Shown one piece after another: positions 3,301 through 46,500 of a stretch of DNA of 64,000 nt. The DNA comes from Apostichopus japonicus (lineage: Eukaryota; Echinodermata; Holothuroidea; Aspidochirotida; Stichopodidae): assembly GCF_037975245.1 (NCBI RefSeq), contig NC_092579.1, forward strand, positions 14,492,678 to 14,556,677, read 5' to 3'. Positions within the stretch are counted from its first letter, which is position 1, and every line of letters begins with the position of its first letter. The translations under genes and the position numbers were made by a program. Under the pieces are notes generated by a model, which did not search any database, was not told the origin of the DNA, and saw only the letters and a list, made by a program, of their open reading frames with translations.

Positions 3301-6300
3301 CCTCAAAAACACTTCCTGCATCTCATCTCTGCCAAATAGAAGTCGACAGTTTTGTAGCGTAGTCTATCTTTCAATCCTTGTTTTAGCTGTGAAAAGTAAA
3401 TCTTTAGAGGTAAAAAGTAAATCTGGCCAAAAAATTATTTACCTATCGAAAGCAACCGATAGAACAGATGACTTTAACCACAAATTTGATCAGAAAGTAG
3501 ACGCAATATCTGTGAGTTGGGCAGGATTTAATAAAGAAAGGCTTTCCAAAATTATATCTTGCATTCGAGAAACAATGTAAATTATGCTTTAGGTTTCAAA
3601 AAAAAAAAAAAAATGATGTTAAATTTTTCATCAAAGCGTTTCCTCGCAATCTGTCTCATTTCCAGAACCAACAAGGCATCGAGTGTGAATGCTGCTTTGC
3701 CGAGTTCCCATTTGAAAACATGGTCCAATGTTTCGAGATGCACCTCTTCTGTGAGGATTGTCTTCAACGATACGTCAAAGAGGCCATCTACGGCCAGGGC
3801 AAAGGAAACTTAGCATGTATGGCCCCCGAATGTGGCAGCACATTTCCGAGAGGTTAGATCAATCGTTTACAGTGTTTCTCACAGTTTTCAATTCTTCCCC
3901 TCTAATATCTTCCAGTTTCAAATCAAAACTGAATTATATTTCAAAGACCATGCCGATCAAAAGTGATGAGTTGCTTTTGACAACGGTGTTGTGACTTGTG
4001 TACCTGTTGTCTGTCTCTTTTGGTCACCATAGTGACTGTTTTCAGTGCCTTCACATTAATGTTCAGGGGATAATACTGAATGTGACACTTATATCTAGTT
4101 GGCTGTGGCTTATTTATTCCACAGGCCAAGCTCATAATAAATGTCACAACTTCTCTCATTGAGGATCTCTTAATGTGTCCGGGAATAATTTACTGTTCAA
4201 ATTTTTGTGTAGCAGCAGTTTTGAAGGTTCTCTATTTCCTGTCTTTGTAAATTACTTTGGATCCTGTGTAAACAAAAACGCTATGCATCTATGCACTTGT
4301 GTAGCAATTTGCCTAGCAATTTGCCAATTTTGCGTAGCGTTCTGAGATTCGATACCAGATAAATAATTCCCGGGAGTGTGTCTCTCTGTGTTTATAACTC
4401 AACGTCCACATCAGCATGAGAGTTTTCTCTTATATGCCAGTCCCTTAAATTTATTACTTTATGTATGCTGTCCTATAGTTCAGGGTTGAATTGCTGGAAT
4501 AAAGTACTGATCATAATATGAAAAACAATATCATGATCTCAACCAACTTGTTTGTTTTATATCAATTGCTTCATGGCAATATGTGTTTATTACAGCAAAG
4601 GTTATAGCGTTATTTTTACAGTTTTTTTTTCGTCATGTCATATCAGTTATACTCACATTTTAAGTATTATACTCACATTTTAAGTAAGTTATACTCACAT
4701 TTTATTCTTTATTGCCCACTTTGTGGGATGCATATTTATCTTTAGTTCCTTTTTCAGGTGAATAGGCAAACATTTTCTAGTCTATGAGGTTTTGAAATCA
4801 AACACTTTTTTGACATAAAGTTTTATTAGTAAAATAAGTTATCTTTAATATTGGAAATATATACAAAACTGTACAAAAGTTGTTCATTTTTTCTTCTCAC
4901 AGACCAGCTGGAGAAGACCCTCGCCCCTGATGTTCTTGCCAAATACGATGAGAGATGTAGCGAAGAATCTGTTCATAAGGCCGACTTGGAAAACCTTGTG
5001 CGCTGCCCTCACTGTGACTATGCTGCGATCCTTGCCCCAGAGTTGAAAGCCTTTCTATGCCAGCAATGTGGCAAGGTATTGTATTATGTCTGATCATTGC
5101 ATTTATAACAAATTCATTTCATCAATAAATTTTATAATAAAACTCCAAATGTATTTTTATTGTTAAAAATTGAGTCAGCTTGATATAGCATGTTCCTCTT
5201 GAATATTGAAATTATTAGATGGATGGTATACGTTTGTAGTTTAAAGCAGACATATGCTCCATGGTAAATCACCTTACATCTTGGGAGACAAGAGCGTGAC
5301 AGGTTGGACTGGTTTGTTTTTCAGGTCGAAGCAACATTTTTGGAATCCATTGATTTGTATTAAAACCTTAAATGTAGTCTACCTTAAACCCTGACGATTT
5401 GAGGATGTTGAAAGTTTAACTTTTAAGTCCTTTGTCGCTGTTTTGATACAACAGAATGACTGTCTTAACTGTGAGTTTATCACACATCATAATCTGTAGA
5501 AAACTCAGAATAGATTTCACATAAGCTACTGGCTGAGAAAAATTCCTCTGTCAAAATTTTGTCTGCAATGTCTTGGTCAGCTTGTTCGTTTCCTTTCGAA
5601 TACAATTTACTTTTTCTCAGCTACTTCAGCATGATACTGTGATTCTTTGTAATAACAATGAGTAAGACTTGTTTGTTTTCCAAACTTAACCTCAACAGGA
5701 AACCTGCCGAAGCTGCCAAGTCGATTGGATGGAGCATTTTGGAAGAAAATGTGAAGAAGTTAAATCGGAAGAAGCATTACGAACCAAATAGTAAGTGACT
5801 TCTTCACATGTTGAAGTCATCTGTTTGTATGGTGAAGCATGCCATCTCCCCCAGCCCCAAATAACTAGAATTATATCACATTCTGTTTTTTGGGGGACTA
5901 AGACTTGGGACAGTAACCTTGTAAAGACTAACACTGTATAATATACCTCTAGAAACTCTTCTTCATGTGTCATCTCCCTTCTAGACTAGGAACATGTTAA
6001 ACTGACGAAAGATTTGAGTCATTATGTTGTATGTATGTATGTATTTTAGATCCTCCTGCAAGCAGGAACTCGCGAAGAAGCTTCATTGGCTTATCAAAAC
6101 CGCAAGCTGACCGAAGTCAGTCTCTTACATTCATATTTAACGTCCATGATTATGAATTGTCAATTGTCAACAACTCTGTAACTGGACGACATACATTAAT
6201 CTTGGAGTGACTAGTTGAATGTTGAATTACAAGAATTGTTGAATTACAAATGCAGATAAGAATAATTTCCTTTAACCAGCTGTCTTGATGGTAGACCAAG

Positions 6301-11699: not shown

Positions 11700-13270
11700 A
11701 CATGTCTTTATCATTATACATGTATCTCTATGTTCACTACACCTGTACCTGTATATGTGCTACATCTACATTGCTTTACACCTATACCAATCTATTCCTT
11801 ACACCCTGCATCCATATGTTCATTCCCCTACATCTATGTAGTCCTCACACCTGCATCTGACTATATCATTACACCTTTATCTCTATGTTCACTACACCTG
11901 TACCTGTATATGTGCTACATCTACATTGCTTTACACCTATACCAATCTATTCCGTACACCCTGCATCCATATGTTCATTCTCCTACATCTATGTAGTCCT
12001 CACACCTGCATCTGACTATATCATTACACCTTAATCTCTATGTTCACTACACCTGTACCTGTATATGTGCTACATCTACATTGCTTTACACCTATACCAA
12101 TCTATTCCTTACACCCAGCATCCATATGTTCATTCCCCTACATCTATGTAGTCCTCACACCTGCATCTGACTATATCATTACACCTTAATCTCTATGTTC
12201 ACTACACCTGTACCTGTATATGTGCTACATCTACATTGCTTTACACCTATACCAATCTATTCTTTACACCCTGCATCCATATGTTCATTCCCCTACATCT
12301 ATGTAGTCCTCACACCTGCATCTGACTATATCATTACACCTTAATCTCTATGTTCACTACACCTGTACCTGTATATGTGCTACATCTACATTGCTTTACA
12401 CCTATACCAATCTATTCCTTACACCCTGCATCCATATGTTCATTCCCCTACATCTATGTAGTCCTCACACCTGCATCTGACTATATCATTACACCTTTAT
12501 CTCTATGTTCACTACACCTGTACCTGTATATGTGCTACATCTACATTGCTTTACACCTATACCAATCTATTCCTTACACCCTGCATCCATATGTTCATTC
12601 CCCTACATCTATGTAGTCCTCACACCTGCATCTGACTATATCATTATACCTGCATCTCTATGTTCATTACACCTTTACTTGTATATATCCACTATATCTA
12701 CATTGGTTTACACCTATATCAATTCCAATCTATTCCTTACACCCTGCATCTGTCTGTTCTTCCACCTACATATATGTAGTCTTCACACCTGCATCTGACT
12801 ACAGTATATCATTTTACCTGCATCTCTATGTTCATTACACCTTTACTTGTATCTATCCACTTTATCTACATTTGTTTACACTGCTATTAATCTATTCCTT
12901 ACACCCTGCATCTGTATGTTCTTTCACTTACATCTATGCAGTCTTTACAACTGCATCTGACTATATCCTTATTCCTGCAGCTCTATGTTCATTACAACTA
13001 TCTGTTAAAGTCTACATTGGTATATTCATTACACCTGTATCAATCTAATCGTTACACCCTGTATCTGTCTGTTTATTTCACCTGCATTGTCTTTAATCCT
13101 GCATATTTATTTATCTCTACATCTGTCTGTTTAGTAGTACACCTGCATCTGTCTGTTCTTTTCATCTGCATCTGTGTTCATTTTATCTTCATCTGACAGT
13201 TCATTTCACCTGCAGCTGTCCGTTCTTTTCACCTGCATGTCTGTTCATTTCACTTGCTCTGTTTGCTACA
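11700..13270. repeat. 155-bp satellite array with a degenerate tail
   Basis: The anchor CTCTATGTTCA recurs at 11726, 11881, 12036, 12191, 12346, 12501 and 12656, exactly 155 bp apart. The first six units are nearly identical; the next spacing is 168 bp, and beyond it the order decays. Inside each unit, cycles resembling CACCTGCATCTGTNTGTTCA recur at about 26 bp. The 155-bp unit therefore looks like a six-fold higher-order repeat of an older short unit, and the decayed tail to about 13270 shows the short unit more openly. Open frames through it encode repetitive hydrophobic peptides and are artefacts of the repeat. It lies between the convergent RNF216 and SLC25A17 genes. Confidence 0.93.
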
Positions 13271-16296: not shown

Positions 16297-16533
16297 ATTT
16301 GGGATGTAACAGAACCTTCTTATCTTCAGCATGTTAAACATGTGACATGATGTAATGCTCTTGCACATAGTATTAGCACACAATAATTCCCTGCATTGGA
16401 AAAGATCACTGCCCTTGATAGTGAGTATTTCAATCACTAAATTCGAACAGAAATATGTGATCACCCGGACAGAACAAACTCTTTTAAATATATCAAAATG
16501 AATGTTCGAAAGATAGATAAGTCTTTCTCATAA

Positions 16534-16962
16534 ATTAGATGATATGGATAAAATCAGTAAAATGCAACAAATCATGATAGTGGTATTGTTCAACCACTAA
16601 CATTAGTGTTCAACCACTAACATTAGTGTTCAATTAGATGATATGGATAAAATCAGTAAAATCAACAAATCATGATAGTGGTATTGTTCAACCACTAACA
16701 TTAGTGTTCAACCACTAACATTAGTGTTTCATTAGATGATATGGATAAAATCAGTAAAATCAACACATCATGATAGTGGTATTGTTCAACCACTAACATT
16801 AGTGTTCAACCACTAACATTAGTGTTCAACCACTAACATTAGTGTTCAACCACTAACATTAGTGTTCAATTCGATGATATGGATAAAATCAGTAAAATCA
16901 ACAAATCATGTTAGTGGTATTGTTCAACCACTAACATTAGTGTTCAACCACTAACATTAACT
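16534..16962. repeat. Nested repeat: 20-bp hairpin unit inside a ~98-bp unit
   Basis: A leader block beginning ATTAGATGATATGGATAAAA starts at 16534, 16633, 16731 and (diverged) about 16869. Each leader is followed by copies of a 20-bp unit, GTTCAACCACTAACATTAGT, in numbers 2, 2, 4 and 2. The unit holds the inverted repeat CACTAA-CA-TTAGTG. A further inverted pair, TAGTGG ... CCACTA, joins each leader to its first unit. The extra 40 bp in the third block is exactly two added units. Confidence 0.93.
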
Positions 16963-27895: not shown

Positions 27896-28969
27896 TAGCA
27901 TCAAGTCATGCAGAATCCTTAGTTTGATGACACTTTTGATTGCAGTTTCAGAAATGTTTAACAACCTGGCACTCAATTAAAATACTCTTTCCATCATGAA
28001 AATAGCTGTAACTCCCATCAAAAGCCATCAAAGATTGACACTTTTACAAGTCTTTTCTTAATTCTAGTTTTATTAATGAATAAACATTAACTAATTTTGC
28101 ACATTGATGATGTAAAAGGAGTGACTGCCTAATTTTCTGTTATGTTATCCCTTTGTTTTCAAAACCTTCGTTTCGTGGACATTGATCACAGGTTTGTGGC
28201 CTGAGGTACTTTTTGAAAATATTTTTATTGTCTTCTTTGAAAGGAGGAACATCACATTATTCAAATTGCTATATGTGGGCTTGTAAATTAGGGGTTAACT
28301 TATTAAGGGATAAAATAAAATATTTTGATATTAAGATAGTTTGCACATCTTTAATGAGTTCCCAGATTTATGAAAACTTCAAATGTGTATATCTTGGAAA
28401 CGAATTGAGCTTTTCCACACAATTTCAACAGATTTAGAATGAGATTATCACACACAACAAATGTACTGCATAAATGGCAAATTGTCTAGGTGACTGTAGT
28501 ATTTTAAACTGAATGATCACATAGCATGACAAACTCATTTAAATTACTTGTTATTAAATGTTTGGGGATAAAAACTTAAAATAAAAATAATAATAGACTC
28601 AATCATAACAAATAGCTGTGTAATGACCTTCAATATTACTGTGATAAAAGGATAAGTTTGTGCAGATTCAGGAAGCAAGTTGTGTTAAGGGAAACTAAGA
28701 ACTGTAGAAAAATATTGAAAATTTATAGAGCAAAAAAAGTCAAAATGTATGTAATTTAGCAAAAGTTGTTTTTTGATTTCTGAAATTCATCGCAATAAGC
28801 AACCTTTAAGTTTTGTCATCTTAATCATCAAGACAAAGAGGGCAGTAGACGATACATGTTTACTTCACGCTGTCGTACTGTCTGCGATTTGCATTCTTTC
28901 TTGTCAACTTGAAACTTCAGGCATTATGCACAATTTAGTTGAAACACTCTTAGCATACTCAACACATAG

Positions 28970-29148
28970 CACAGACAGTCAACAGATGACTCACTTATCA
29001 CAGTTACATACAAGGTTATAACTGATTATGTGTAGCACCAGACAACAAGAGTCTACACTACACACAACACAGACAGTCAACAGATGACTCACTTATCGCA
29101 TTTACATACAAGGTTATAACTGATTATGTGTAGCACCAGAAAACGAAA
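28970..29148. repeat. 98-bp tandem duplication
   Basis: The block beginning ACAGACAGTCAACAGATGAC at 28971 repeats at 29069 with few differences. Both copies continue into GGTTATAACTGATTATGTGT and end in GTAGCACCAGA. It lies just downstream of the ALG1 stop codon, possibly within its 3' UTR. Confidence 0.9.
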
Positions 29149-29226: not shown

Positions 29227-32200
29227 TTAGGTATACAGAATTGGTTTCACTGTTTTCAGCCAGCTTTCCTCCCACCTCAATTCCTGAAATTCTTTGAGGT
29301 TTTTACGAAATTCTTCGAGCTTTGGTACATTGGGAAATTCGTTAAGGAGGTCTTGTATCTGGGATGCAAGCTCTGCCTTGTTCTTAAAGACGAGCCCATT
29401 CTTGCCATGCTGCACTAATTCATGAAGGCTGTAAATGAAATTGAAAAGATTCCAATAAAAGTTAAGACTGATAAACATGAAAACATCAAGATACATCACT
29501 AATCAAGATAATAGACAGTCAAGCAGCACTAATATTACTTAAGAGTGGAATACCAGCCAGGCCTAGAAATTCACAAGCCACCTGCTTAAAATATGCATGT
29601 GCTTCAAAAAATCTACTGGCTGAATGTCAAGTTAACACAGGTAGTTTCCTGAATTGCAATACATATTAGTTACAGTATTGGCTTTATAAGAGCTAGCCGA
29701 TAATAACATTTGCTCACAATAAGTGCTATTCCAAGGCTCATGTCAGGTACTGAAATCAAATGGATTCTTTGATGATTAATAACCAACTTATGAAGAGTTT
29801 ACAATCTTAACGATAATAAATTGCAATTTCTTCAAATAAATTGCCATTTCGACAAATAAAATTCCATTTCTTCCCATTGCCAAACAGCTACAACCACTGG
29901 CAGTTAGTCAATAAATTAGCAAGTATTTCAAGGCCTGCTGTCTTTATTGTGAAAGATGTAAGGACTCATCCCAACATTAAAAGGCTCAAAACTTGCAGCT
30001 TACCAGTTAAAATGAATTGCACATACTGGAAGCCCACAGCCAAACATGTCAACAACTTTCATGGGAAGGTCAAGACCACTGGAGGAAAGGTGCAGGCAAA
30101 CCCCAAGATCAGCAGCTCCTAGAATTAAAAAAAGAAACAGAAAAAATAAACATTGATAAAATCTTTACAAAATAGCTACACTAAACCAAATACAAGTGAA
30201 AGCATACAATAGATCTCATGTTATCATACAGTGAGTCACAGACTATGACAAATAAAGAAACATACTGGGAAGAGATGTTTAATGGTCATTCTAGATGACC
30301 AAATTTATGTTTGGACGACCAATATCAGCTCTGAAGGTCAACGTGGAGTGGGGGAGGGGGGGGGTTGACTAATTGTTAACATGTAAACTTTCATATTGCA
30401 TTGTGACAGATACAACCAAGAAATTATAAATTGGTATGACCAACCTCCATTACTTTGAAGATACTTAAAACAAACAAAATATAGTGGAAAGCCTATGATC
30501 CACAGGTAGAATTGTTCTATTCACCAAAACCTCACATCTCTCCTACAGTGTACAGATTAGTCATTCTTTGTTGTTTTGCTTCCTTTTTGTCAAACAACCA
30601 GATTTCCTCTTTGGGAAACCGTAAAGTAGGATCTGGTTGTCAGGGGGACACCCAGAAAACAATCATTCGCATAGCTTCAATGAGCTGATACACTTTGTGT
30701 GTAGACTTCCAACAAATTTTGCTACTACTATGTGAGAGCGGCACCCAGATAGTACGAGCTACAGCAAAGATAAAGACTTTAAAAGTTTGATGAATAGGGA
30801 AATTATACATATTGGAAATACATATGACATCATGTATCACTTATTCAACTGAAAATATCTCTCGGATGGTACCATAATTTTGCCACGGAGGCAGATTACC
30901 CGCTCAAAAACAGAAAAGCCTTGAATCACAGTATGCGAACAGCTAAAACAATACTTCCTAACATATCACATTGAGTAAGTTCAATAGAAATCAAAAATAC
31001 GATCTGAAAAGAAATGAAGCTTTTCAATATCCTGTACCTTGAACACACCACAGACAACATAGTATAGTGTTTATGAAGGTTTTATCTCGCAAGAGTTTGT
31101 GGAAATTTCTACAGTTAGAAACAAGACAATCAGATGTTTTCAACTAGCAGTTATATTGTTGAAAATATTGTTGGTTTCCCTGTATGGGTGGAATTGTTCT
31201 AGTACTATCTATTCATTCTTTCTTGTCTTTGTCCTTCTCCAGTTTATTCCCTTCCCTTTATCCTCTCTTTGTCCCTCCACTGTTTATCTCCTACCTCTCC
31301 TCTTCCCCTGTTGGTTTCTTTCTTTCTTCTCTCCATCCCTTGTCTACTAATCCCCTTTCATCCATCTCTTTGTGTTCACCATGCTTATTAACTGGTCTGT
31401 ATTTTGTGCGTGTTTTTGTCCCTTCTGCTACTGTTACTTGTCATTTAGCCTTTGAAGAAGATCCTGCTAGGATCGAAACGTCAGGCTAACTTACTTTTAC
31501 ACATTCTCCTACACAGGCTCTCTAGTGGATAAGCAGTTTGCTAACAGTTTTATTTTATTTTACTATCTATTCATGTAAGCTGAACTTACCAACAAGGAGA
31601 GGGTAGTCCTCAGCAGTCAACCATGGTGTACATATTGTCACGTGTTGGAAGGATTTCTTGCTAATTATTTCTTCATAATGTTGTTTCTGAGGGCCTTTTC
31701 CTGTTATGGCACAGACAATGTCTGGTAAGGTCTTGCTTTTACTCGCAGCCTCTTCGTAACCTGTCAACAAGAAATCAAGACATCGTTCAGAACTGTTTAT
31801 CATGAAACTTTATAGCATACAATAGGGTAATTTAAAATGTGAGATACACCCTGGTATGATGATGGCAGCATTGATAGCTCGTCTTTAACAACACTAGAAT
31901 GTTCTTGACTTACATGTTTTCTCAACTTCTATTTCCATTTTTTTTCGAAAGTAAAATAATTTTTGCACCTAGGACGTTCAAATACATAAATATTTTGGCA
32001 CAATATTGCTCATGCTCTACATGCACTATTCTCTTGTCAAACATGTGCATCTGGTTTGCTCGATGCCTTTTGTATTTTAGACTAAACAGACACATTGAAA
32101 GAAATGCAACAACAATTTCATTTTTATGTCACTGAATCTAAAACAGTAAACAACAGAAACTTTCTTGAGCACCTACTATATCAACGATCATCAGATAAAT

Positions 32201-35200
32201 CAAGGCTGATCAAATTATTCCAGTAGTATCAACTATTCATGACCAGTGTAAACTATGTAAATATCCAACCCCAAGATTTAAGAACATTGACATTACTTCC
32301 ATTATTTTCAGTTCTGCTGTCACATTTCCCCCTCTAGCAAGCCCCACCACACCACACCCCACCCACTCCCAACACAACCCACCCACAACGGCACTGAGCT
32401 TTTATCACAGACCTGAATACTGAACTATGGGAGAGTTTCCCTAAGTCGAATTTCTCCCCAAACTAATGCAGAAATCTTACTCTTTAAAGCATCAACATCT
32501 TTCAAACTAATACAGAAATCTTACTCTCTGAAGCCTGAACACCTATCAAACTAATGCAAAAATCTTACTCTCTAAAGCATCAACACCTAACAAACTAATG
32601 CAGAAATCTTACTCTTTAAAGCATCAACACCGATCAAACTAATGCAGAAATCTTACTCTCTAAAGCATCAACACCTAACAAACTAATGCAGAAATCTTAC
32701 TCTTTAAAGCATCAACACCTAACAAACTAATGCAGAAATCTTACTCTCTAAAGCATCAACACCTGTCAAACTAATGCAGAAATCTTACGCTCTAAAGCAT
32801 CAACACCTAACAAACTAATGCAGAAATCTTACTCTTTAAAGCATCAACACCTGTAGAACTAATGCAGAAATCTTACTCTCTAAAGCATCAACACCTGTCA
32901 AACTAATGCAGAAATCTTACGCTCTAAAGCATCAACACCTAACAAACTAATGCAGAAATCTTACTCTCTAAAGCATCAACACCTAACAAACTAATGCAGA
33001 AATCTTACTCTCTAAAGCATCAACACCTGTAGAACTAATGCAGAAATCTTACTCTCTAAAGCATCAACACCTGTCAAACTAACGCAGAAATCTTACTCTC
33101 TAAAGCATCAACACCTAAAAAACTAATGCAGAAATCTTACTCTCTAAAGCATCAACACCTGTCAAACTAATGCAGAAATCTTACTCTCTAAAGCATCAAC
33201 ACCTAACAAACTAATGCAGAAATCTTACTCTCTAAAGCATCAACACCTGTCAAACTAATGCAGAAATCTTACTCTCTAAAGCATCAACACCTAACAAACT
33301 AATGCAGAAATCTTACTCTCTAAAGCATCAACACCTAACAAACTAATGCAGAAATCTTACTCTCTAAAGCATCAACACCTGTCAAACTAATGCAGAAATC
33401 TTACTCTCTAAAGCATCAACACCTGTCAAACTAATACAGAAATCTTACTCTCTAAAGCATCAACACCTGGCAAACTAATGCAGAAATCTTACTCTCTAAA
33501 GCATCAACACCTAACAAACTAATGCAGAAATCTTACTCTCTAAAGCATCAACACCTGTCAAACTAATGCAGAAATCTTACTCTCTAAAGCATCAACACCT
33601 ATCCAACTAATACAAAAATCTTACTCTCTAAAGCATCAACACCCATCAACTTACTCTCTAACGCATCAACACCTATCAAAGACTAATACAAAAATCTTAC
33701 TCTCTAAAGCATCAACACCTTTTAAGCTAATGCAGAAATCTTACTCTCTAAAGCATCAACACCTGTCCAACTAATACAAAAATCTTACTCTCTAAAGCAT
33801 CAACACCTATCAAAAACTAATGCAGAAATCTTACTCTCTAAAGCATCAACTCCTGTTAAACTAATGCAGAAATCTTACTCTCTAAAGCATCAACACCTAT
33901 CCAACTAATACAAAAATCTTACTCTCTAAAGCATCAACACCTATTAACTTACTCTCTAAAGCATCAACACCTATCAAAAACTAATACAAAAATCTTACTC
34001 TCTAAAGCATCAACACCTTTCAAACTAATACAAAAATCTTACTCTCTAAAGCATCAACACCTATCAAAAAATAATGCAGAAATCTTGCTCTCTAAAGCAT
34101 CAACACCTTTCAAACTAATACAGAAATCTTACTCTCTAAAGCATCAACACCTATCAAACTAATGCAGAAATCTTACTCTCTAAAGCATCAAGTAGTATTG
34201 AAAAGTCCTCATCCTCTGTCCAGCTGGTGCTACTGATCAGTAAAGCCGGCCTGTCCTCTTTCACCAGGACTTCTCCGTCTACCACTTTTGTAAAAGCAGA
34301 TTCAGCTGCATTGCCTTCCTTGTCTTTAAACTCTGGATATTGCTTGCCAAGTCGCAGAAATAGCTGAAAAAGTTGACACAGAAAGATGCTTAAAATGTCA
34401 ATATAAAGCTGTTAATCTGTTGTATGGACAATTCATTGTTCTTCAAAAGTTATAATGCAGAGAAAGGCAGTAAATAATTTATCCAGCATCACATCACAAA
34501 ATGCTATGCAAATGTGGTCATTAGTTGCTGATCAAGTCCAAAGATGTCTGGTATCTAGCAGTATCAACACAGGAAGCTGAGTAAACATAGTAAGAGACAA
34601 AATTCAGAGCCTTCAAAACTGCTTCACAAAATTTGTACACTAAATTATTCCCTGAAAGGTGCATTTTACCAGTCAAAACAAAAGAATGTGTAAAAGTAAG
34701 TTGGCCTGACGTTTCGATCCAAGCAGGATCTTCTTCAACTTTAGGCTAAATGACAAGTAACAGTAACAGAAGGTACAAAAACATGCACATAATACAGACA
34801 GGTTAATGAGCATGGTGAACACAAAGAGATAGATGTAAGGGGATTAGTAGACAAGGGATGGAGAGAAGAAAGAAAGAAACCAACAGGGGAAGAGGAGAGG
34901 TGGGAGATAAACAGTGGAGGGACAAAGACAAAAGAAGACGTCTAAACAAAAGAAGACGTCTAAATCTGAAATCGTAGCATTGGCAATGAAACAGGAATGC
35001 TGGTAAATCTACATCTCGCTGCAAAACAGGTACTCCTTACTATGCACATCATAGTAATACAGGTTGAGTATGTATGATTCACAAAGCAGTTGCATTTCAG
35101 AGAGGATAAAAAGTGCTAAAGAGACGTAAGATGGTTACTTGCATTCTGAGATCACAGTGATCATTAACGAGCAGAACATTCCATTATTATTTTGAAAACT

Positions 35201-38200
35201 TACAGATTACCCATCATACAGTACATTGGTCCAAACACCTACTGCTGGCATACACATCCCAAGACGCAATATGGCCTAAGCCCAGGTTACTCAACCTGTG
35301 GTCCGCGGACCCCTAGGGGGTCCGTGAAATTTATTAGGGGGTCCGTGAGGGCAAAGGGGTCTGCAGGGGGTCCGTGAAAAAATAAGGGTCCGCGAAAGCC
35401 GAAGAGGTTCGTGAAAAATGGAATGAGAGATATAGTCGAAGGAAGAAGTATGTATGCCTCTAGAAATCTAGGCTAGGCTAGCCGTCAGTACGTCGGACCC
35501 TGATGATCAGACCGTATCGTCAGTAGTCGATAAATGTTGAATCGTGCATTCCCCGATGAAAACAAGTAATATAGTTTCTCATTGGATTACATTCGGTGAG
35601 GTATGGATAACATGCCACCCGAGTGTTGTGTACAACTTAACTGCACACTATACATCCTAATATGCAGAGCAATAACTATGATGCGTTGCTCACCGTTGAC
35701 ACAGCGAAGCGCGGCAGTTATAAGGCTTTGGTGGAGGATAAGTTATAACTAAATTGGAATTGACACACACAAAAACCGGTGCCGTTTGCAGCTATCTGAC
35801 AAAGAAAACACATAATTCTCCTGACCTCATGCAGAATCAACCAGTTTGTATCTGACAACTCATCGCTTCCAAATTAAAATGTAATTGGGAAATATATCAT
35901 TTGAAAGTAAGAATTTCCAAGTAGGCCTATGCCTAGCAATACTTGCAGGTCTAGGAAAACTGCATTCCATGCCCAGAAAAATGCATTTCTAAACATAAAT
36001 TCTTGAACATAAATTTACTTCAAAAGTCACAAAATAATGCACCATTTCGCATCTGACCCTCAATATTGAAAAAAATCAAAAGGGGACAGGAAAACCCCCT
36101 CCCATTATACCCCTCCCCCAGGCCGGCGGACACTGTCCGGGGGTCCTCCAAACATTTCAGTTTATCTCAAGGGGTCCCTGGATAGAAAAAGGTTGAGAAC
36201 CTAGGGCCTAAGCCACACCTCTTGTGATATTTCCTCAAAATAGTCATCTCTTGAATAATCGTTAATTTCCTTTAAAGACATTCATACTATCATGAAGCTT
36301 GTCTCCGGTTGCCCAAGACTTCTTAGTTTTATCAGGTTTCTAACATACTTTAGCTAGAGGGACTTTCCTTTTCTTGCTTTACCTCGTGTTTATCTGCTAC
36401 AGAGGTCTCTTTGAATACATCTGCTGCTCTGTCATACAGAGTGGTCACGTTCTGTAAGCCCCAGTTCATGGTAAGGTCATCATTCATTGCATTTGTAACA
36501 CAGAGATTGTCATTTGCGCACCTGCAAAATGTCCGCTCAAACCTGCCATTTGAACAGAACAATGTCAAATCACATTTTGTATTAAATCATTGCCTTTAGC
36601 AAGCTTGTTTCACAGTTATCTTATACAATTTATGGACGTTGCTGTAAACTTGATAAATTGCACATTTAACAACCTCTTATAGGCGTGAGTAAAACTTCTC
36701 CCAGATCCATGTTTAGTTCCTCCATGATATTATAGAAAATAGACAACCATCTTTAACAAAACACAACTTTAGCGAGCTTTAACATTGTGTGACTAATCAC
36801 TATCTGAACATACTTTGAGCTATCACCGCAGCAAATTACTTTTGATACATTGGAGCAATTTTTAGCAAAACTTGTAAAATCCAAGAAATTTATTGCCCAT
36901 TATGGCCATGTCTGCAAGTTAAATTTCTTGCACATAATCTTGTCAGTTCTATTATACTACAGAATTGCACTGAAACAACATGAAATCATGTAACTTCCTG
37001 CAGTAAGTATCAAATTAAAGGCCTAGATGCTGTTGAAATAATTAACAACTACAAACACCAGTTTATTTGTCACCACATACCTTTCAGCTAATCCAACAAG
37101 CAAGTGATTTTTGCCCAAGGATAGGCCAAGGATAGTATAGCCATAGTTGTGCCAATCAATGATGAATTTGCTACCATAGAGTCTGCCCATAACCCAAGCA
37201 ACTGCTAGGGTTGGAATGGTTGGTGGATTCTGAAAAGTAAACCAAAGTATTTAAAGAAACTGTAACTTCTCGTGAGGCTCTAACACATTGCAGCATAACC
37301 ATAACATTGCATGCTAACAGAAGGTAAGTCGATTATCTAGAAAATAGCAGATGTACATCCCGATGAACTTGTAGGAAGTTTACTTACATACTTTGGATGT
37401 TTTAAATTTGATGACAGTTTAAATAGTAATGTGAATAACTGGAGTCCAGTTCTTAGCTTTGGGTAGATAAAATCAGCAGAACATGAAATGGCTAAAAGAT
37501 TGAAGAGACTTTTGGTAATCTCAGATTGGAAATGATTACAAACCTGGACTATAATGTGTGATGGCCACTTTATCTTGATGAAGAGAGTCCAGGTCAGCTG
37601 GAAAGCTTGGAGTAAAACTTTGGTTGGGTACCTCAGGAAAGTTGGCAAAACTATAGCAAAGACAAAGTTTGTAATGTAAAAGGCAAATGTACAGGCAAAG
37701 AAATTTCAGACAAGAAAAAAACAAAATTTGAAGAGACTCATAATTTGAGTTTATATTAAAGATTATGTACAGTAAAACTTAACAGAAGATTCTGAGTATT
37801 TTGCCAGGAATGATTGAATTAATCAATCAAACAGAGAGATCTACATCACATTATAAATACTGTACCTACCGTACTTTATCCCCATCAAAGCTACTCAGCT
37901 TGCTAGTAAAAATTTCATTTCGAGTTTAACAAATCTGTTGCTCTGACACTGGTAGTGTACATTAGTGTTAATCTCATACATATTACTATAATTAATAAAT
38001 GTTTATAATGTTATGGTTATTCTGCATGAAATAGTTGGGATGATCACACAGAAAACATCTTTATACTCAAAGCAAGTTTCTGCATCGTTAGTTTAAGTGA
38101 AAATGAAATACTGCTACAGTATGTACCTGACACATATTAAGGAATCTGATGCAAAGAAATTTAGTTTTGGAATCCATCCTTACATACTGTAGGAATACTA

Positions 38201-39801
38201 GGATGCAGTCTTATGGCTAAGCTATAAAGGAGAAATGAAACAATTTTAAAACAACAATCTGGGCAAGCTGAGGGGAGATGAAACAGATAGGCTCTTGGGA
38301 ATAACTGTACCATCCTGCCTCTCAAGCCCTCTGCTCTGATGGTTTTACATTCTTGAAAATTTAAATATAATTGCAAACATTAACTACATTTGACATTGCT
38401 GTTTTACATTAACATTACTGCATTAACTCACATATCAGGTTAGGTACATCGCTCATTGGATGAAGGCGGACTTTGCTGCTGGAGTTCAAAATTTCATTTG
38501 GTTTGGATCCTGAGAAAAAAAATATTCAGTACATCAATACTAAAAAATAGTAATTATGTGCCTAGCATAAGATGATCAATCCACATTTACACAAGCTTGT
38601 TAATTAATGTCAGGTAAGTATTTTATAATACTATATATACAGGAAACTTGTACATAGTCCATTTTTCTATATATACATCGAAAGTAAATCTGCAAAAACT
38701 AAATTTTTAGTGAAAGATGTTAGTTCTGGATTTTTCTGAACAGCAAGAAATTCAGTAAGAGGCTTGTGTTATTATTTATTAAATCTACAAATTTTAAAGT
38801 GTTTATCTTTTGGACAAATAACAGAACAATGTGGACAAAGGCTAAATATTTCAAAGCAATCTTTGTATTGTTTGTCTTTGCCTGACAATGTATGGACCCG
38901 CTTCCTGTGACATGTTTACAAACAGGAAGTTGATATTTTTCAAGATTGGTTCTCTTGAACAAACTTTCACAATTTTCTGATGTTGGTGTTTCATATGTAC
39001 ACTGTACCTAATGACCGAAGAGTCATGGGTTATAGTAAATGGTTTATTGTTTCAAAATCATGCACATGTATGTTGTGTTGTGTAGAGCATTTGCTCACTT
39101 CTAAATGTGTTCTGAAATCATAGGCTATCTTTATGGTATGAAAATCCACTGATTCACAATATGTAGGAACAATCAGATAGTTTTTATGTTAATTTTACAT
39201 TTGTACAAGTAGCCTAGTCTCACACCATTTTTACATACCATATGCTGCGATTTGACCTTGGGTCAGAAGACCTTGCACTTCTGACCGACAGAATACTGCA
39301 TGTACAGTTGGTTAACTAAATTAGGCAAGGTCTAGGCTGTAGGCCTAACGTAGTTCAACAACACTGCATGGAATCCGTATGGGGATTTACTGGAGCCAAA
39401 TGTATCACTGTAAGTTATTGTAAGCCTAGGCCTATCAAAGTTAGGCAGAGAGTAGGTATACAGTAGGACTAGGCTAGGCCTAGTTAGGCCTCCAGCAGGC
39501 CCAACATAGTCTTTCTTAAACGAAACTTACCGCCATATCCGACAATGTCCACATCGAAATTCAATTTTGCAAATGAAGCTGCATGATACTGCATTCTTGG
39601 GCTACGACCAATATCTCCTAGAACGATAATACAGGCTGTGGAACCCATTCGAGCCTTACGATAGCCAGACGCCATATACAAAAAGACAAGGGTGACAAAC
39701 ATCAGGCTGTAAAGTCCCTGAAAATATAGGTAGACTTCCATGAAAAGGATCATAGATCCTTGGACTACAATGTCCATATACTGGTCTGAAATGAGTGCCA
39801 T
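29227..39801 (-). CDS. ALG1: ALG1 chitobiosyldiphosphodolichol beta-mannosyltransferase, complete, 9 exons
   Basis: Exons in transcript order: 39531-39801, 38432-38509, 37544-37650, 37081-37229, 36383-36542, 34177-34363, 31590-31760, 30004-30118, 29227-29428. Phases join throughout and give 479 residues, slightly longer than vertebrate ALG1. The enzyme adds the first mannose (beta-1,4, from GDP-mannose) to GlcNAc2-PP-dolichol on the cytosolic face of the ER. Visible: an N-terminal hydrophobic anchor (residues ~16-43), [14 protein letters not shown] after it, [93 protein letters not shown] and the C-terminal [13 protein letters not shown]. The start at 39801 is the first ATG after an in-frame stop at 39808-39810. 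An unusual satellite follows exon 6 (34177-34363), and introns 5 and 6 carry transposable elements. Confidence 0.96.
31240..31562 (+). mobile_element. Repeat element with GATCC hairpin and GAAACGTC, copy A
   Basis: A pyrimidine-rich stretch leads to AGCCTTTGAAGAAGATCC, then the perfect hairpin GATCCT-GCT-AGGATC, then GAAACGTCAGGCT. The copy continues with TAGTGGATAAGCAG and ends in a TTTTATTTTA tail. Copies B (34685-34930, inverted) and C (43757-43872) share this core. It lies in an ALG1 intron, antisense to the gene. The element class is not identified. Confidence 0.75.
32450..34190 (-). repeat. 44-bp minisatellite built from the ALG1 exon 6 / intron 6 junction (~39 copies)
   Basis: A unit of about 44 bp repeats from near 32450 up to and into exon 6 (34177-34363); I count about 39 copies plus the true junction. 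Read in ALG1 sense, each unit contains GATGCTTTAGAGAGTAAGA. This is the last 13 bases of exon 6 followed by its 5' splice site GTAAGA. The copy nearest the exon runs directly into coding sequence, so the array grew from the junction into the intron. Two main unit types alternate irregularly, reading TTTGACAG or TTTGTTAG before GTGTTGATGC. Units near the exon end are more varied, and a few are shortened. No ORF or array-associated gene is present. Confidence 0.95.
34685..34930 (-). mobile_element. Repeat element with GATCC hairpin and GAAACGTC, copy B (inverted)
   Basis: The reverse complement matches copy A (31240-31562) over the pyrimidine-rich lead, GTTCACCATGCT, TTACTTGTCATTTAGCCT and the hairpin core. 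The hairpin carries one change in its loop-side arm (TGCTTGGATC). Similarity stops after CTTACTTTTACACATTCT, so the 3' tail is missing. Copies A and B face each other around the 44-bp satellite and ALG1 exons 6 and 7. Confidence 0.8.
35281..36204. mobile_element. hAT-like non-autonomous DNA transposon
   Basis: The ends are imperfect inverted repeats: CAGGTTACTCAACCTGTGG on the left, and AAGGTTGAGAACCTAG on the right. Both are followed internally by GGTCCGCGG- and GGGGTCC-type sequence. The 8-bp target duplication GGCCTAAG flanks the element at 35273-35280 and 36205-36212. An 8-bp duplication and CAGG...TCAACC ends fit the hAT superfamily. No transposase frame is visible. It lies in ALG1 intron 5, between exons 36383-36542 and 34177-34363. 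Confidence 0.85.
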
Positions 39802-43537: not shown

Positions 43538-46500
43538 TCACCATAAGGTACCTTTACACTCCCAATCCACGCAGTCCTTGGATGGGAATATGTCAGGAAC
43601 CATGTTGACTTCTGTCGTAAACGTAACGTGTTGGCCCTTTGGTGCTTCAAACATCATCTGAAAAAGTAATGATATAGGAATGCTTTATTAGAATCAAGGT
43701 AATTCAAGCCACCCGAATATATAACAGACAGTTTGATAACAGTTTGATCCCAATTGTCATTCAGCCTTTGAAGAAGATCCTGCTAGGATCGAAACGTCAG
43801 GCCCACTTACTGTTACACATTCTCTTACACTGCAGACTCATTAGTGGATAAGCAGTCGCCAGTTTTGTTTTATTTTAGTTTCAATTGATAACTTGTCAAA
43901 AACTATGAGTTAGCCTGTCCTTCTACAACACGGTATTGTGTTCAAACTCGCTAACAAACCTTTACGAAAGTATTGCGTTAGAACAGTCTTTAACAATGAT
44001 TAAAATGCTAACAATGTTGAGAAAAATGCTCAGAATTATATCAGATATGATTAACAATATGGGAAACATCCTGTTTGCTTGATTAAAGAATAAGTTTAAA
44101 ATAATCAAAAGGCATTCACTTCTTAAAATATGGTTGCCACTGTTTGATGCTTTAAATTGAAAGTTTGAATTACTGACCTCGATAAAGAAACAGGACCAGC
44201 CTTTCTTGGGAATTTCAACAACCGCTTGGTATGTGTTCTCCGCCTAAATAATAAACAAATAAGGTTATTTCAACTTTTGAGATCATGGGATATAACATTA
44301 CTATCTTTGCCATCCATTGCCATGTTTTTATCTGATTAGAACCATATCAAATACGTGAATATTGTTTCATTTCTCGTATTTGATAACATCGTGTCATTTT
44401 CAACCCTCCTAAAAGATCATTTTTACTCAGACCTCGTTTCTTTCTTTTTGTCAGTCAAATAGCCATACTTTCTGGTAATACCAGCATTACTGTCAAATTA
44501 TTTTGCATCACTAACACTGATGGCAACAGTAAACACAACAGCAAGTCTTGCTATAAGTCTTGTTCTATGTTATGGAATGGTTTTAAAACTAGAACCAAAC
44601 AATCAAAATAGAGTGTTATACTGTTGCAGACATCGCACTGTATAAGTTCTGATGCACACATCCAGCCGCTATTTAACACATGAATCTATGGAAAGTTACT
44701 CCAAGTCGCATTAATGATGTCATCTCATCCGATATGTTCAATGTTCCAATCACTTGATTGAAGTTTAAGTCTTCACCCAGAGTTTTGAAATGTCTGACGT
44801 ACTATATTAAATATCATATTTCATTCAAATTCACTCACCGGATTTCCAACGCCGATGTTTCGGTAGATAGTCGGTTGCGGTTTGATATCGGTGGTGTTAG
44901 GTGTTCGAGCTATCACCACTCTAAAGTCACGTCTGAGGAGCAGAATGTAATGTCGTTTTTAACATCATATCACGTGGTTTACTGTAAAACTTCACGCAGT
45001 TTCTTAATCTCATGTATTTACATTATTAGTACCTTTAAAACAGCAGTGATTCCATTTAACAATTTTGAAAAGTATTGAAGTGAAGCATCTACTTTCATTT
45101 TTGTTTGATTATTTTGCTTTTTTACTAGTAAACAGGTAGTCTGAATACAAAACAATGGCGGCATAATACATGTTGACATCGTTGTGAAAACGAGCATAAT
45201 TTTTATAGACCGTAGTTACGTTCGAAGTAAAGGTATACGGTGCAGTGCGCAAGGGTGCCCTGGGGCGGTGGCCACCCTACCACCTCTGATCGTATAAGTA
45301 GGGGGAATGTTTCAGTCGGGGAGAAATTGTTTAGTCGGTGGATTTCTGCATTCAGCCAGGGACGAATTGGACCACTACTATACCACTCTTTACCTGCCCC
45401 TTTTTTGAACCTAACACAAAGTATTTATCAGCAAATCCTTACTAGGTTTTGTGACTATTTATATAGACTTTATATGTATAGTCATAATATGCCTCAAGAA
45501 AGCCAAATTTGACGTCGAAAGTTTTGTTCCCCTGGGGAAGGACCCTAACCGGCGATAGCTACACAGGAGCCGGTTTCGATGATCCCAAGGCAGCTTCCTG
45601 TCCATTATAAATCTCATGATTAGACTCTGGTCCTTCCATACAGGTTCAGCTCCCCCACTTCTATCAATCAGGAGAAAGTTTCAATTGAACACACACAAAC
45701 CTTTGAAAATCCTGTGCACGACACTGATATACGTAATACAATAAAAAGAGACGTGAAATCAGATTATACAGTAAGCTGAAAAGTACAATTGGCTAAGCAG
45801 CTGCCGTGTGGACAACAAAAGCATTTAAATTGTCGTTACAGAGTTTGAAATGTACCTGTAATCTGTATACGTGTCCGCCTTCCATGCCGTAACGTTAAAT
45901 GGTGTCCTGTCGGTCGTAACGGTTATCATACCTAGGCCTGCACCCTGTGCAAAAAAAATAAGCTCAAGCATCTACAAGCAATAATCGTGGAATTGGGGCT
46001 TGTACCAATACGTGTGACATACATGACACTTATCCCACAACAGGGCGGGGAAGCTAAGACAAAGGGCTTATGGAATGTTCCCCTTTCCCCTACCCCTCCC
46101 AACTCATCAAGGGTGCTCCTTTTCATACATAAGAAGTGCCCGTTTTTGTTTAAAAACATAGCTTTGCTCTTTTTGGTCATAACAACTTTTATTATAATAT
46201 ATCGCCATGTTGAAAAATACTAAAACAAAAGTTTCATTTTTGTTAAAAATATTCAAATACTGGAGTTTAGTGTACATAATGCACAAATCTCCATTTTTCG
46301 GGACGTTTCAAAGGCGATTTTGCGGTTTACTGCCTCAGATCAGAGTCACGTGTCTCACAACGCCTCTAAGGTTGTGCCGAAAAAAACGAAGGAATAGTTG
46401 TTAGTCCAGAATTCATCAAAGATTAAATTAACATACCTCGGTTCTTGTCCATTGGAGTTTCGGAAATTCCCATCCCTGCAAAACATGAAATGTCATTTTA

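Follow-up and report, generated by a model that had tools for sequence, protein, structure and literature searches.

Minisatellites that carry splice donors have been described in two human genes. In IFI6 (also 6-16 or G1P3), the older case, a minisatellite provides multiple splice donors for the interferon-induced transcript, and two downstream units are used as donors in transcripts; this minisatellite was reportedly the subject of a 1995 paper by Turri and others. IFI6 units are short (12 bp), and use of their donors keeps the frame. In the Alzheimer-risk gene ABCA7, the VNTR of human intron 18 includes the exon 18 donor, varies in size between roughly 12 and 427 units and has an effect on splicing (PMC5954066). 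From the same source, one-unit retention amounts to 2 ± 1% and is unchanged with array length, in-frame skipping of exon 19 increases with length, and expression in the longest genotype lies 33% below that in the shortest, a fall that the authors do not attribute to nonsense-mediated decay (PMC5954066). Tandem duplication of splice-site sequence is also a described route to new introns: Internal tandem duplication has been proposed as a mechanism of intron creation (Gao and Lynch, 2009, as cited in PMC2809761), and the potato RdRp gene is presented as such a case (PMC4974935). The kind of array described here is therefore already known from ABCA7 and, earlier, from IFI6, and the array in ALG1 is a new case of it; no title among the literature matches listed concerns such an array in ALG1.

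The array lies in a gene whose identity is clear. In the window (the whole 64,000-nucleotide stretch of Apostichopus japonicus DNA that was analysed), the ALG1 coding region including the stop codon occupies positions 29227 to 39801 of the minus strand, with nine exons that encode 479 amino acids between a proposed ATG at 39801 and a stop codon at 29229-29227. The predicted protein matches ALG1 (chitobiosyldiphosphodolichol beta-mannosyltransferase) over its full length, and both PF00534 and PF13692 are above the Pfam cut-off. Among the best 120 of 5408 protein matches, the top one (P0001, from a 1991-base contig) has 75% identity, and named echinoderm ALG1 proteins have 59-64% identity to the predicted protein by these matches and the alignment, with sea urchins, starfish, brittle star and crinoids all at about 60%, values that by themselves make an echinoderm host very probable and a sea cucumber no more than a guess by elimination; when shorter ALG1 fragments served as queries, the highest identity among the best 120 of 158 matches was 66% over 73% of the query. 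Exon 6 (34363-34177, minus strand, 187 nt, phase 0 in and phase 1 out) joins exon 7 (31760-31590, minus strand, 171 nt, phase 1 to phase 1) in the conserved frame. Nine relatives align across this join (...DALES|YEEA...) without a gap, and their lengths diverge, by one to a few residues, only from four residues downstream. Because the frame is intact and the protein conserved, ALG1 is presumably spliced mostly in the normal way. Between the two exons, intron 6 (31761-34176, minus strand) measures 2416 nt, 1718 nt of which are array, and contains no AATAAA or ATTAAA polyadenylation signal.

The array itself runs from 34191 to 32459 on the minus strand (1733 bp) and consists of 40 head-to-tail units with a period of 44; Tandem Repeats Finder likewise returns a single array at 32459-34191, with period 44, 39.8 copies, 87% matches and a score of 2583. 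Cutting at each TTGATGCTTTAGAGAGTAAG (at most 5 mismatches) delimited 34 units of 44 nt, four of 46 nt and two of 30 nt, with 26 distinct sequences among the 40. Allowing at most 3 mismatches, this 20-mer occurs 40 times in the window, always inside the array (shuffle mean 0.05, n=100), and it is exact in 31 of the 40 units, corresponding to 30 of the 39 copies. The array starts 15 bases inside exon 6, is contiguous with that exon and includes its donor: Unit 0 is the true exon 6 end, comprising the last 15 bases of the exon, together with the donor, and units 1-39 are copies within intron 6. The initial annotation had reported about 39 copies of the donor following exon 6, with the true donor first in transcript order, and both statements agree with what we find. 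Its span of 32450..34363 holds for the array at 34191-32459, the remainder (34363-34192) being ordinary exon 6, and the exon stretch carried by the units is 15 bases long (TTGATGCTTTAGAGA, exact in 31 of 39 copies) and not 13 as it had stated.

Units are not equally alike along the array. The part proximal to the exon (units 0-13, 33596-34191, minus strand) is more diverse, contains the 46- and 30-nt units and shows a peak of unit similarity at a lag of seven units (units 4-6 resemble 11-13); the distal part (units 14-37, 32540-33595, minus strand) is more uniform and made of 44-nt units throughout. This pattern, diverse near the exon and uniform away from it, is as expected of a minisatellite growing by local duplication. 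Near-identical arrays are easily mis-assembled as a general rule, and the copy number could in principle have been inflated or collapsed in this way; however, the number of distinct unit sequences, their ordered variants and the unique flanks make such an artefact extremely improbable and point to a real multi-copy array, even if the figure of 40 is inexact.

Tandem arrays are common in the window, where 20 of them (hand-merged from Tandem Repeats Finder output) cover 7.5% of bases, making it less astonishing that one of them has come to include a splice site. The others include a 155-bp tandem array of 8.7 copies at 11709-13065, also readable as shorter 23-bp units; a nested array at 16533-16959, with 20-bp units (TGTTCAACCACTAACATTAG) within a 98-bp higher-order unit; and nearly two copies of a 98-bp unit at 28962-29144, just downstream of the ALG1 stop and perhaps in the 3' untranslated region. 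Elsewhere, a frame at 3516-3857 has a Cys/His pattern resembling that of an RBR-type E3 ligase, presumably akin to RNF216, with no Pfam match for the single frame. Five other frames of the window gave no Pfam family at E 0.01, and no known RNA family reached its gathering score in the window. A 21-mer of the array unit had no exact match in viral contigs, in a search that may not cover records close to the genome of the window.

Nearly all copies retain what a donor needs at its core: 38 of 39 have GT, and the unit at 34103 has GC. The 9-mer of the true exon 6 donor (AGA|GTAAGA, 34171-34179, minus strand) is found unchanged in 34 of the 39 copies, the remainder being AGA|GTAAGT in the two 30-nt units, a C at -1 in two and the GC in one. 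The earlier statement that each unit carries GTAAGA is thus correct for the 34 copies with the true 9-mer and fails for the GC copy and for the two with GTAAGT, which is a better donor than the true GTAAGA. Scored by a consensus matrix and by pairing energy to the U1 5' end, the true donor reaches 4.76 and -5.3 kcal/mol, placing it lowest of the eight ALG1 donors on both scores, albeit narrowly (exon 3, 4.80; exon 2, -5.5), and 36 of the 39 copies score at least as high on this matrix. GT sites that equal or exceed the true donor's score number 49 within the array's 1733 nt (the true donor itself, 36 copies and 12 CAG|GTGTTG seams) and 40 in the rest of the locus (8369 nt, including the seven other true donors). 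We also considered whether RNA folding hides the decoys: With five settings of the folding window, the copies predicted to be less paired than the true donor numbered 4, 0, 1, 12 and 19 of 39, and from a result that shifts between 0 and 19 of 39 we conclude nothing.

Use of a decoy would be destructive. Reading beyond the true exon 6 junction in frame gives SKISALV and then a stop (TGA), just as the initial annotation had it, and its further claim that a decoy serving as exon 6 donor ends the protein early applies to every copy: Any of the 39, like retention of intron 6, yields one identical 324-aa product. Since the stop precedes further exon junctions, nonsense-mediated decay of decoy-spliced transcripts is expected from established knowledge. 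A transcript without exon 7 (171 nt) stays in frame and encodes 422 aa; one without exon 6 does not, and encodes 273 aa. Both exons and the array are flanked by the two arms of an inverted repeat, at 34683-34928 in intron 5 and at 31266-31507 in intron 7, each about 240 nt long with 3.2 kb between them; their complementarity is 95% along 186 nt and 96% along 56 nt. Judged from this complementarity, the arms could pair in the transcript and place both exons and the array in a loop; inverted repeats in such flanking positions are able to promote exon skipping or the formation of circular RNAs. They are probably copies of a dispersed repeat, given a similar reading near 43678-43851.

If decoys were kept for a purpose, their donors should be better preserved than their surroundings, and here two measures differ. 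Distinct variants, counted by hand on an alignment of the 40 units, number 7 in the 20 exon/donor columns, 4 in the next 13 intron columns and 14 in the 11 seam columns (one of the 14, a G in column 36, being an effect of how the 30-nt units were aligned); measured in this way, conservation of the donor part does not exceed that of the intron beside it, so that there is no clear selection for decoys. By raw mismatches across the 39 copies, which amount to 11 of 778 letters in the exon/donor columns and 66 of 911 elsewhere, the exon/donor columns vary less than the intron columns beside them, and weak selection or homogenisation is therefore possible; 47 of the 66 fall at the seam and 18, by hand count, in columns 21-33 (about 481 letters), 16 of these 18 stemming from two shared C/T variants. 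Selection for decoy donors was hence not adopted as an explanation, the distinct variants giving it no support and the raw mismatches leaning towards a better kept exon/donor part. Titration of U1 by the array, as initially suggested, is not supported: The donor core shows no clear selection, and by established knowledge U1 far exceeds the nascent RNA of any one gene, so that the idea was set aside on stoichiometry.

Alternatively, the true donor might win in essentially all transcripts, leaving the array an inert minisatellite without effect on ALG1. An intact and conserved ALG1 frame, from which it follows that most transcripts must be right, and donors that by distinct variants are not specially kept in the copies both speak for this reading; however, most copies match a true donor that is itself weak, such that one would hardly expect the first copies to be shut out entirely, and ABCA7 shows about 2% one-unit retention (PMC5954066). 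On balance, we consider an inert array unlikely.

We instead regard it as probable that the array is a tolerated intronic donor minisatellite with no evolved task, probably variable in length, and that through mis-splicing it reduces ALG1 output to some degree. Its founding event may have been a tandem duplication straddling the exon 6/intron 6 boundary of ALG1, after which slippage or unequal exchange would have produced the 39 extra donor copies. As the conserved protein suggests, most transcripts would use the first donor, aided by the body of exon 6, and join it to exon 7. A minor share would either use a nearby copy, run into a stop some 20 bases past the true junction and probably be lost to nonsense-mediated decay, or skip exon 7 in frame. 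The net effect would be a somewhat lowered ALG1 output, as reported for the ABCA7 VNTR in people, and by this analogy slower splicing or a tuned ALG1 output, both raised in the initial annotation, are plausible, and variation in array length between individuals is likely. The link from decoys to output may nonetheless be indirect, because in ABCA7 one-unit retention is length-independent and the fall in expression is not explained by decay; if ALG1 behaves similarly, a longer array would be expected to show first in reduced output and more skipping of exon 7, and less in splicing from distant decoys.

A different fate of the units is suggested by an AG located three bases ahead of the duplicated exon end, present in 37 of 39 copies, whereby the unit reads as AG, 18 nt and a GT or GC donor, and each such copy is therefore an 18-nt pseudo-micro-exon. 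The initial annotation had mentioned neither this AG nor the in-frame cassettes, the flanking inverted repeat and the published precedents. All 37 cassettes are in frame, lack a stop and would add six residues (mostly VDALES), and the architecture of a cassette micro-exon (acceptor, very short stretch, donor, frame kept) is thus present, by sequence alone, in 37 of 39 copies. On a crude acceptor score, 27 of the 37 attain 2.63 or more and 10 of them 4.7 or more, compared with 152 and 63 of 3649 other AGs on the same strand; the best copy acceptors, at 6.12, come close to the true exon 7 acceptor at 6.70. Single units might accordingly be spliced in as 18-nt cassettes, giving ALG1 isoforms with six more residues beside the exon 6-7 join, and these residues, if the reading is true, would sit inside the ALG1 glycosyltransferase group 1 domain. 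However, the acceptors derive from one ancestor, for which a score attained by about 4% of AGs combined with a 1 in 3 chance of keeping the frame is no strong signal, and in 36 of the 37 another AG lies within about 15 bases upstream. With a crude score, one ancestor and these upstream AGs, the acceptor signal counts as one suggestive observation and not as 37. Furthermore, none of the nine aligned relatives (none of them this species) has an insertion at the join, though beginning four residues beyond it their lengths vary by one to a few residues. Of 36 possible two-unit cassettes, 34 are out of frame, and splicing of one unit to the next seems scarcely feasible, since within a 44-nt unit only 26 nt separate a donor from the next acceptor. 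We consider micro-exon use of the units highly unlikely, and give equally little credence to its extension, a ready-made micro-exon satellite in which unit number would set the odds of normal ALG1, ALG1 with six added residues and truncated transcripts, and thereby act as a length-tunable splicing switch.

As a tolerated donor minisatellite, the ALG1 array suggests that minisatellites of the ABCA7 kind arise outside vertebrates too and that a housekeeping gene can harbour one of about 40 copies. The locus is a natural setting in which to test how the spliceosome chooses among 40 near-identical donors in series, and bears on 5' splice-site choice in general and on the relation between intronic repeat length and expression.

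Set against the described systems, the ALG1 array is close to the ABCA7 VNTR in its layout. Both are minisatellites flush with an exon and including that exon's donor; in both, splicing from the donor of the following unit lengthens the exon by one unit and leads through a frameshift to a stop; and in both the downstream exon (exon 19 in ABCA7, exon 7 in ALG1) can be skipped in frame. The units differ, those of ABCA7 being 25 bp long and starting exactly at the GT, whereas those of ALG1 are 44 bp long and carry 15 exon bases with an AG in front. The host genes are different and the likeness drawn here is one of anatomy, and whereas ABCA7 is backed by population, expression and isoform data, the ALG1 array is known from one assembly. 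With the IFI6 minisatellite it shares the supply of multiple donors, but the 12-bp units of IFI6 keep the frame, whereas the 44-nt step and early stop of ALG1 make donor use destructive. Introns created by duplication resemble it in that a tandem duplication carries splice-site sequence, and AGGT is found at the seam before 35 of the 39 ALG1 copies; unlike in those new introns, however, the duplicated boundary in ALG1 belongs to an existing intron, with the copies inside it. Cumulatively, these comparisons place the ALG1 array, by its anatomy, with the splice-donor minisatellites of the ABCA7 and IFI6 kind.
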